From: Gemmatimonadaceae bacterium
GTDB lineage: Bacteria > Gemmatimonadota > Gemmatimonadetes > Gemmatimonadales > Gemmatimonadaceae
Length of the DNA stretch: 64,000 nt
NCBI GenBank assembly: GCA_025934775.1
Contig: JAICWO010000014.1
Span: 1 to 64,000 of the forward strand
Direction: 5' to 3'
A model generated the notes under the pieces. That model saw only the letters and a list, made by a program, of their open reading frames with translations. It ran no database searches and had not been told where the DNA came from. The position numbers and the translations under genes are program-made. Shown one piece after another: positions 8,632-10,311 of the stretch (positions are counted from its first letter, which is position 1; every line of letters begins with the position of its first letter).

Positions 8632-9075
8632 TCACAGTTCTTTGGCGAGCACTCTCCGGCGCAATTCGAAGAACGCTGCATCGAGCGCGTGGCCGTCGCG
8701 CATCGCGCAGTCCTCGAGCAGATCGAGGAAGCGCCGCTTGAGTGCGCGACCCGATTCGCCCGCCGGCATCGTCGCAATCGACTGCGCGATCGCCGCGCTG
8801 TCGGCGAGGTAGCCGCGAATGTTCGGTATGCCAGCCGTCGCGGGCTGGGCATGCGACACGGTCAACGATTGCACCTGGAGCGCGTCGGCGAGTCGGAGAT
8901 TGAGCGTGGCGGTCAATTCGGATTTACCCGTCATCACCCGCCACAACTGCTGTCGCGAGGTGCCGGCTTGCTTCGCGAGGCTCTGCTTCGACAGTCCGCT
9001 TTGAATCCGAAGCAGCTCGATCTGCTTGCCGAGCTCGGTGAGCTCAGGAAATCCGGATGCGGCCGCGTGAGACAT
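8632..9075 (-). CDS. XRE-family helix-turn-helix transcriptional regulator
   Basis: 147 residues, start ATG at 9075. Residues ~14-70 form a lambda-Cro-type helix-turn-helix (LSKQSLAKQAGTSRQQLWRV is the HTH core). A ~75-residue C-terminal part (GYLADSAAIAQSIATM, then a basic helix ending LRRRVLAKEL) has no motif I recognise. The gene is divergent from the Rad52-like operon through face-to-face promoters, and only 31 bases upstream of dapE, so it could control both sides or simply itself. In Deinococcus, the XRE repressor DdrO controls ddrA; the arrangement here is reminiscent, but I do not claim orthology to DdrO. Confidence 0.85.
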   Translation of the reverse strand: MSHAAASGFPELTELGKQIELLRIQSGLSKQSLAKQAGTSRQQLWRVMTGKSELTATLNLRLADALQVQSLTVSHAQPATAGIPNIRGYLADSAAIAQSIATMPAGESGRALKRRFLDLLEDCAMRDGHALDAAFFELRRRVLAKEL

Positions 9076-9087
9076 CTCTCGATCCAA

Positions 9088-9116
9088 TTGACCCTTGACG
9101 TAACAAACGCTACATT
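9088..9116 (+). promoter_or_regulatory. Plus-strand promoter of the Rad52-like operon
   Basis: TTGACC (9088-9093), 17-base spacer, TACATT (9111-9116): the same two hexamers and spacing as the infC promoter. Expected start of transcription is near 9123. It lies just upstream of the xre start codon (9075) on the opposite strand, so a repressor bound here would act on both directions. Confidence 0.6.
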
Positions 9117-9149
9117 CAAATACCGAACAGACCCCGAATTCATGCAACG

Positions 9150-9177
9150 TATGTAACTTCGTGAGGTTATGGGTCAA
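9150..9177 (-). promoter_or_regulatory. Minus-strand promoter of xre
   Basis: On the minus strand TTGACC (9177-9172), 16-base spacer, TACATA (9155-9150), start near 9143. It points toward the plus-strand promoter at 9088-9116, so the two transcripts would overlap by about 20 bases. Two imperfect dyads built on GTAAC/GTTAT or GTAAC/GCTAC lie at about 9100-9113 and 9153-9170 and could be operator sites. Confidence 0.4.
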
Positions 9178-9178
9178 G

Positions 9179-9541
9179 GTGGCGAAAGTCAAGAAAACAG
9201 GGGCTGTTAGGAGGTCGAAGACCGCAAAGCGAGGCTCGGCGAAATCGGCTCGGAGGAAGCCGAAGCGACGCACGAAACACACGCCTCCCGCCCCCGTCGC
9301 GACGTTCGCGGTTCGCCCGCTCGACCCGGTTCGGAAATGCGGGCCAGGCACATCGGTCGAGCAGCTGTACCGGGTTGACGAATCGAGCAACGGCAACGCG
9401 CGGGTGCACCTGATCTTCTTCGACCGGCACGGCTGGTACTGTGAGCACGGCCGCGACTGCCCGGCAGTCTCGCACGCACGGAAATTTGGTGATCGCGCAC
9501 GACACAATGGACCTACTCGAAACGGAAGGATGAGAGCATGA
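9179..9541 (+). CDS. Small basic protein with a zinc-knuckle-like motif, unknown function
   Basis: I do not recognise this as a named family. From the GTG at 9179 (GAGG 11 bases upstream) it is 120 residues; a GTG at 9161 would add six. The first ~40 residues are Lys/Arg/Ala-rich, like histone-H1-type tails, suggesting nucleic-acid binding. The second half has a compact segment VHLIFFDRHGWYCEHG followed by RDCPAVSHARK, a C-x-H-x3-C-x4-H pattern that could bind zinc. The stop overlaps the next gene's ATG (ATGA), so it is probably co-translated with the Rad52-like protein and may be its partner. Confidence 0.7.
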   Translation: MAKVKKTGAVRRSKTAKRGSAKSARRKPKRRTKHTPPAPVATFAVRPLDPVRKCGPGTSVEQLYRVDESSNGNARVHLIFFDRHGWYCEHGRDCPAVSHARKFGDRARHNGPTRNGRMRA

Positions 9542-10311
9542 TCGCACGACATGAGGCGAATGGGGAGAAACTGGACATCTGGACGCAGTTGTCGGCGCCG
9601 CTTGCCGCGGACGTGATCTTCTGGCGACAGGATGGCCGGCCGATTCAGCGCGAGGGGAAGTATTTCGCGCGCTTCGTTGCGTACATCGAAGCGAACACGG
9701 TGCGTGAGCGATTGGACGGCGTCGTCCCCGGCGAATGGGACCTGACGCTCGAGCTGCTGCCGACGCTCCCCGCCGAGGACCACGACGAAAGCGCCTGCTC
9801 CTTCAAGGCGCGGCTCCAGATCCTGGGTGTGATTCGCGAGGACGTCGGCACCGGACGCGACTACAAGCAGGCGGCGACGGACGCGTTCAAACGCGCCGCG
9901 GTTCGGTTCGGGATCGCGCACGAGCTCTACGCGTACGAGCAGAACTGGGTGCAGGTCGACGGCGATGGCAAGTTCGCGCGGCCCCTCGAGGATCCGGCGG
10001 ACGCGTACGCGCGCCGCCAGCGGCGCGAAGCCAAGCATGTCATCGCGACGAACGATGAGACCGCACCATCCGAGGTCGTGGCGGCCGACGTGAGGGCGAC
10101 GGGTCCGCTGGCGACGGAGGAGCCGAGCTGCCCCAAGTGCGGCGGCCGCATGTGGGACAACCGCATCTCGAAGCGGAATCCCAAGGCGCCCGACTTCAAA
10201 TGCCGGAGCCGCTCGTGCGACGGCGTGATCTGGCCCGCGCGCGCCAACTCCGACCGCGCCGCCGCCGAGTCGATGGAGCCGCTCGCGGGGCAAGCGGACC
10301 TCACGATCTAA
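9538..10311 (+). CDS. Rad52/DdrA-type single-strand annealing protein with C-terminal zinc ribbon
   Basis: 257 residues, ATG at 9538 with GGAAGGA upstream. The stretch YKQAATDAFKRAAVRFGI (about residues 104-121), followed by HELY, matches the K-x-A-x-x-DA-x-KRAA-x-x-FGI-x-x-LY signature of the Rad52_Rad22/DdrA family, which anneals complementary single strands. Near the C-terminus, CPKCGGRMWDN and KCRSRSCDGVIWP form a CxxC...Cx4C ribbon of a kind I associate with phage-borne Rad52-like proteins. Likely role: DNA end protection or annealing during repair. Phage ancestry is possible, though no other phage genes are nearby. Confidence 0.75.
   Translation: MIARHEANGEKLDIWTQLSAPLAADVIFWRQDGRPIQREGKYFARFVAYIEANTVRERLDGVVPGEWDLTLELLPTLPAEDHDESACSFKARLQILGVIREDVGTGRDYKQAATDAFKRAAVRFGIAHELYAYEQNWVQVDGDGKFARPLEDPADAYARRQRREAKHVIATNDETAPSEVVAADVRATGPLATEEPSCPKCGGRMWDNRISKRNPKAPDFKCRSRSCDGVIWPARANSDRAAAESMEPLAGQADLTI

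Follow-up and report, generated by a model that had tools for sequence, protein, structure and literature searches.

A probable SOS-controlled operon for a Rad52-type annealing protein and a small partner protein in the chromosome of Gemmatimonadaceae

Which regulator controls a chromosomal operon that encodes a Rad52-type single-strand annealing protein, and what could the products of such an operon do? The question is raised by a locus in the window, the 64,000-nucleotide stretch analysed here, which belongs to a Gemmatimonadaceae genome of 4.9 Mb. At this locus a gene for an XRE-type regulator is divergent from an operon consisting of a small gene and rad52 (Table 1). A preliminary description had taken the three genes for a DNA-damage-responsive annealing module, possibly captured from a phage, with opposing promoters and with the XRE protein as a DdrO-like repressor. 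It is partly confirmed by our analysis: the genes are real, but we arrive at another reading of their regulation. We consider it probable, from sequence comparison, that the locus is a LexA-controlled (SOS) two-protein annealing operon which has long been domesticated in the Gemmatimonadaceae chromosome.

Table 1. Positions of genes, predicted control elements and protein features at the locus, numbered from the first letter of the window.
Feature	Position	Strand	Basis
XRE-family HTH regulator, 147 aa	8632..9075	-	Pfam HTH_31/HTH_3 over cut-off; tblastn synteny
Sigma-70-like promoter TTGACC-N17-TACATT of the small-rad52 operon	9088..9116	+	scan; conservation
Putative LexA (SOS) box ACCGAACAGACCCCGAA, direct repeat, 11-bp phasing	9122..9138	+	5 bp after the -10
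Small basic protein, 120 aa from the more likely start GTG 9179	9179..9541	+	conserved beside rad52
Rad52/Sak-type single-strand annealing protein, 257 aa	9538..10311	+	PF04098, phrog_1097, orthologs
Annealing domain, residues 15-140	9580..9957	+	PF04098; ortholog alignment
C-terminal zinc ribbon, residues 198-227, CPKCGGRMWDNR...FKCRSRSCD	10129..10218	+	ortholog alignment
Degenerate SSB-like tip QADLTI of the window's annealing protein	10291..10308	+	ortholog ends

The genes hold up as they had been described. The product of the minus-strand gene matches HTH_31 with 37.9 bits and HTH_3 with 26.9 bits, each above the Pfam cut-off, and is of the XRE type. The two plus-strand genes form an operon in which the TGA of the small gene shares a four-base overlap (9538-9541) with the ATG of the 257-aa gene. 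The longest frame of the small gene begins at 9161. We regard the GTG as the more likely start, because relatives keep the resulting N-terminus (MAKVKK...) behind a Shine-Dalgarno sequence.

The profile matches of the 257-aa product place it among the annealing proteins of the Rad52/Sak type, and an annealing activity is predicted for it. It reached 37 bits against PF04098 (Rad52_Rad22; curated cut-off 20.3), which agrees with the Rad52/DdrA-like family assigned to it previously, and an E value of 3e-16 against phrog_1097, 'Erf-like ssDNA annealing protein'. The orthologs are 56-80% identical, and inside the annealing domain the stretch DYK.A.TDAFKR..VRFG is invariant in their alignment. The C-terminal zinc ribbon, also named in the preliminary description, was borne out: the pattern C-x2-C...C-x4-C does not vary across 21 aligned orthologs. 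The same ribbon recurs in many viral contigs and in proteins of Gemmatimonadaceae that are prophage-like and, judged by eye rather than by profile, of the RecT, Erf, and Sak4 types. The AlphaFold model of the protein, with a pLDDT of 60, was too poor for a fold search, and no significant PDB match was obtained.

Orthologs of full length were found in the window's own family only, in 19 genomes including its own among 298 genomes of the phylum. A profile search found Rad52_Rad22 in 14 of 200 genomes, and among 85,000 scanned species genomes we found 25 loci, nearly all of them labelled Gemmatimonadetes and one 'unidentified bacterium'. Of 33 distinct loci, 32 have the small gene directly upstream of rad52 on the same strand, and at the remaining one the contig ends; in most loci the pair is flanked by dapE, asd, and/or recN, as in the window. 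The three genes had been proposed as a conserved trio. The small-rad52 pair is indeed kept, but an XRE gene accompanies it at only 12 of the 33 loci; what is conserved as a unit is therefore the pair, without the XRE gene. In two genomes (L069 and L070) a small gene with the putative SOS box stands next to dapE, where rad52 is missing; the small protein can thus be retained alone.

The operon promoter TTGACC-17-TACATT was the sole sigma-70-like match in 2 kb (shuffles gave 0.2). Relatives keep it as TTGACA-17-TATAAT/TAGATT, with TTGACA-17-TATAAT at L064, and the plus-strand promoter proposed with its TTGACC -35 box can be retained. This does not apply to the opposing promoter, which had been read from a TTGACC on the minus strand (9172-9177). 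Here the scan gave no acceptable -10, and in most XRE-bearing relatives the place of this TTGACC is taken by TAGGAG, which serves the small gene as ribosome-binding site. Since the opposing promoter was neither found nor is conserved, the proposed overlap of transcripts is unsupported. Nor is there support for a face-to-face switch of the kind described for phage P2, which needs two overlapping convergent promoters.

A direct repeat, which the preliminary description had overlooked, is found in the promoter region of all XRE-bearing loci. It was searched for as [AC]CCGAA-N5-[AC]CCGAA, with the reversed motif as control. Upstream of the Rad52-paired small genes (type I loci) the box was present in 32 of 32 cases, 26 of them exact and six with one mismatch; since these operon promoters supplied the first reading of the motif, this count is partly given by construction, and the independent support comes from other SOS genes. 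The background was 0.03 per kb, and none of 21 loci with a stand-alone small gene (type II) had the box. Nine genomes together contained 83 exact matches compared with six for the reversed control, and in each of the nine the box occurred once in front of the small-rad52 operon. In the window's own genome ACCGAA-N6-CCGAA was found five times and the reversed control not at all.

The neighbours of the box in the nine genomes include lexA, recA, uvrA, uvrB, uvrD/pcrA, ruvB, gyrB, and gyrA, as well as the imuB cassette, Rv2578c-type and UDG-linked radical SAM genes, Ku, LigD, and others. Representative identities were checked by profile, except that the imuA-like gene matched none and was named by position and resemblance. 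Some sites precede genes without a known link to repair. In the window's own genome lexA is preceded by two tandem copies of the box; a box in this place commonly indicates that lexA regulates itself. A degenerate copy lies 83 bp upstream of recA in this genome, and an exact one is found at recA in genome G023. As the neighbours have the make-up of an SOS response and lexA itself carries the box, we read these sites as an SOS regulon, and the direct repeat is very probably the LexA (SOS) box of Gemmatimonadaceae. The damage response that had been postulated for the annealing module would in this way be supported on other grounds than those originally argued, namely by a LexA-type box shared with lexA, recA, uvrA, uvrB, and ruvB.

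The genes at ten of the box-bearing loci (L230, L282, L221, L247, L251, L254, L262, L277, L217, and L245) are recA, uvrA, uvrB, ruvB, gyrB, gyrA, and those for LigD, Ku, and DUF5131 proteins. A second LexA-like gene of the window's own genome (L208, G000:C23:61053) had no box that we could see upstream.

In the open-access literature we found no published LexA box for Gemmatimonadetes. Seventeen LexA-type motifs have been reported, and direct-repeat motifs, including GTTC-N7-GTTC, are described with a similar gene set (PMC8565304). The alphaproteobacterial box GTTC-N7-GTTC (cited in PMC8565304) is likewise an 11-bp-phased direct repeat in front of SOS genes, but the half-site in Gemmatimonadaceae is CCGAA (TTCGG) instead of GTTC.

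We considered two other explanations for the locus as a whole. The divergent XRE protein could be a dedicated damage-sensitive repressor of the operon, in the manner of DdrO or of a phage switch, and the direct repeat its operator. The XRE gene does adjoin the operon divergently at 12 loci, and CGT[TA][AG]C-type elements, which could be the XRE protein's own operator, are enriched around the promoter at XRE-bearing loci (mean 1.7 versus 0.55). Yet the box remains at the 21 of 33 loci that have no XRE gene, genomes that lack this XRE arrangement also have it at lexA, recA, and uvr genes, and the opposing promoter is not conserved. Control of the DdrO kind, as had been suggested, is not supported: the XRE gene is absent from most of the loci, and no RDRM palindrome was found in 3 kb around the locus when searched with one RDRM-like consensus at up to three mismatches. 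In addition, phmmer against PDB chains, a set in which the presence of DdrO was unchecked, returned generic HTH matches and none to DdrO. We judge XRE control through the direct repeat unlikely. GTNAC-type dyads were also looked at as XRE operators; they showed a weak association with XRE-bearing loci and we make no claim for them. Even less credible to us is a recent phage remnant, in which the operon would be a phage module for recombination that is still on the move and the XRE protein a repressor of the phage type. Viral contigs encode Rad52 proteins that are 59-67% identical to the window's, and the zinc ribbon is common to phage recombinases. Against this, the synteny is fixed over many genera, no phage genes were seen around the operon, and the small partner was found in none of the phages and viral contigs searched. 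Because the two genes are paired and usually fixed between dapE/asd and recN, we take the operon to be domesticated rather than freshly captured. Of the suggested phage capture there remains an event that is plausible as an old one: the phage relatives point to an old phage-type gene, but the synteny indicates that it has since been domesticated and is now a vertically kept chromosomal locus.

A further choice between two explanations concerns the C-terminus of the annealing protein. The end of the protein could be read in 32 distinct orthologs, and 27 of them close with a mostly acidic stretch and [ILV]-P-F (for example DDDLPF, DEIPF, DELPF), behind a linker that is variable in length and sequence. 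The SSB of the window's own genome ends in EEDDDLPF. SSB tips dock and recruit annealing and repair proteins (PMC5928155), and annealing proteins use C-terminal regions for partner interactions (PMC11783212). The tips of SSB (DDDIPF in E. coli; NDYPPF in phage HK620, PMC5928155) likewise combine acidic residues and Pro-Phe after a disordered linker, whereas here the tip is borne by the annealing protein itself. We found no report of an SSB tip on an annealing protein in the open-access literature. Alternatively, rather than recruit SSB partners, the tip could act as an autoregulatory tail and fold back onto the annealing ring. Acidic tails of SSB-type proteins fold back, and in several proteins a tail of this kind competes with nucleic acid for the binding site; an acidic tip behind a long flexible linker, as in the 27 orthologs, would suit this function. 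The tip, however, matches the docking motif of the same genome's SSB including the terminal Pro-Phe, which would be superfluous in a purely electrostatic tail. Autoregulation is possible in our view but the less favoured function, and we prefer the recruitment of SSB partners.

The window's own copy does not end in the acidic-[ILV]-P-F form. Its ADLTI aligns with DLPF without a shift, and at the codon level two base changes separate them, so the tip has probably decayed. As it is degenerate, tip docking may be lost in the window's strain. The tip is also lost in L191, L192, L193, and L066, through early ends or sequence change. One viral relative of the annealing protein ends in DDLDLPF, and L093, L095, L097, and L098 encode stand-alone tandem double zinc ribbons of the Rad52-protein type which end in SSB-like tips such as DDDLPF.

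The small protein consists of a Lys/Arg-rich tail and a conserved C-terminal domain and had no match in Pfam or NCBIfam. Two subfamilies, Rad52-paired and stand-alone, are seen in the alignment; they diverge too far from each other for a joint alignment to serve in a collection scan. In the paired form the tail is basic, and several relatives have it long and rich in Lys and Ala; C60 (KCG) and C94-x-H96-G-x2-C100 (numbered from 9161) are conserved. The motif C-x-H-x3-C-x4-H by which the protein had been characterised thus stands in part: C94, H96, and C100 are conserved, but the last His is not, and the upstream C60 is conserved instead. The stand-alone form is without C60 and has an N-terminal motif Q-x-[DE]-[LF]-[FW], which we take to resemble the bacterial sliding-clamp (beta-clamp) motif QL[SD]LF. 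The stand-alone proteins (L076-L089, L104-L108) have a QLDLFP-like N-terminus and are mostly encoded beside metabolic genes with no SOS box. Several genomes contain a second, distant Rad52_Rad22 paralog with an SOS box upstream (L242 = G244:C2:826060, L281 = G159:C6:611166); in G159 and G170 a stand-alone-type small protein comes after this paralog.

AlphaFold predicted a confident alpha/beta core for residues 48-110 of the small protein (about 90 pLDDT), for which Foldseek returned no match below E 1. SpoVG, the best match in VIA-align, was rejected as a fold match, as its Z of 5.4 and rmsd of 3.4 over 65 residues are in the range that the tool calls common. The order of elements, strands and then a Cys at a helix start, is reminiscent of the SWIM zinc finger. 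This assignment was rejected as well: there was no match to PF04434 in Pfam, and the ligand pattern and order differ from CxCxnCxH. A profile comparison with SWIM, built from only three SWIM-like rows, gave a probability of 0.1%. On the Thermus plasmid NZ_CP092444.1 (L287) a SWIM zinc-finger gene is located two genes upstream of a Rad52 gene, and at L111 (151-354) a small Cys/His protein is encoded two genes upstream of a phage Rad52. The Thermus plasmid thus likewise encodes a small Cys/His protein upstream of its Rad52 gene, but the window's small protein has no detectable homology to it and another ligand order. No report of a SWIM-Rad52 pairing was found in the open-access literature.

Two groups of known proteins are closest to the window's annealing protein. 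The Sak/Erf-type annealing proteins of phages (phrog_1097; PF04098) have the same annealing domain and are often encoded near recombination genes. In contrast to these the window's gene is chromosomal, syntenic, and under a putative SOS box, and the protein has a zinc ribbon, a dedicated small partner, and, in most relatives, an SSB-like tip. DdrA of Deinococcus, likewise a bacterial Rad52_Rad22 protein, is under DdrO/RDRM control (PMC1978522). The damage-inducibility of the window's protein is predicted from its control box, which is putatively of the LexA type and not RDRM/DdrO. Plasmid-borne relatives from Deinococcus and Thermus are 32-37% identical; the one of Deinococcus aetherius (about 192 aa) is without ribbon and tip.

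What the sequences show is the gene pair and its synteny, the box shared with other genes, the ribbon, and the tip; on these features a model can be built of how the operon could work. Without damage, LexA bound to the direct repeat at the transcription start would block the operon. Upon damage, RecA filaments would trigger the self-cleavage of LexA, and the small protein and the Rad52-type protein would be made together. As in its family, a multimer of the Rad52 domain is expected to bind and anneal single strands, with the zinc ribbon probably adding to the grip on DNA. In most relatives, the SSB-like tip would most likely let the annealing complex recruit host proteins that dock on SSB, or else it would regulate the DNA binding of the annealing protein itself. 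The most likely role of the small partner, which has a basic tail and a compact Cys/His domain, is to bind DNA or the annealing ring and to help in loading or bridging strands. More speculatively, and with doubts of our own, the operon might encode an SOS-induced machine in which the Rad52-type protein mimics the SSB tip and recruits the SSB interactome. The new small family would then be adaptors that connect annealing with the SSB partners and with the replication clamp, the Rad52-paired form binding DNA via its basic tail and the stand-alone form bearing an N-terminal QLDLF-type clamp motif.

The box, the tip, and the small protein family are the previously unreported pieces of this locus. 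If our reading is true, the box would be the first operator motif, with a first outline of the regulon, for the SOS response of Gemmatimonadaceae, for which we found none in the open-access literature, and would add one more LexA-type motif to the 17 reported (PMC8565304). It would also mean that in this family a Rad52-type annealing protein has been brought under the SOS control of the host, and that an annealing protein may recruit repair enzymes by copying the tail of SSB.
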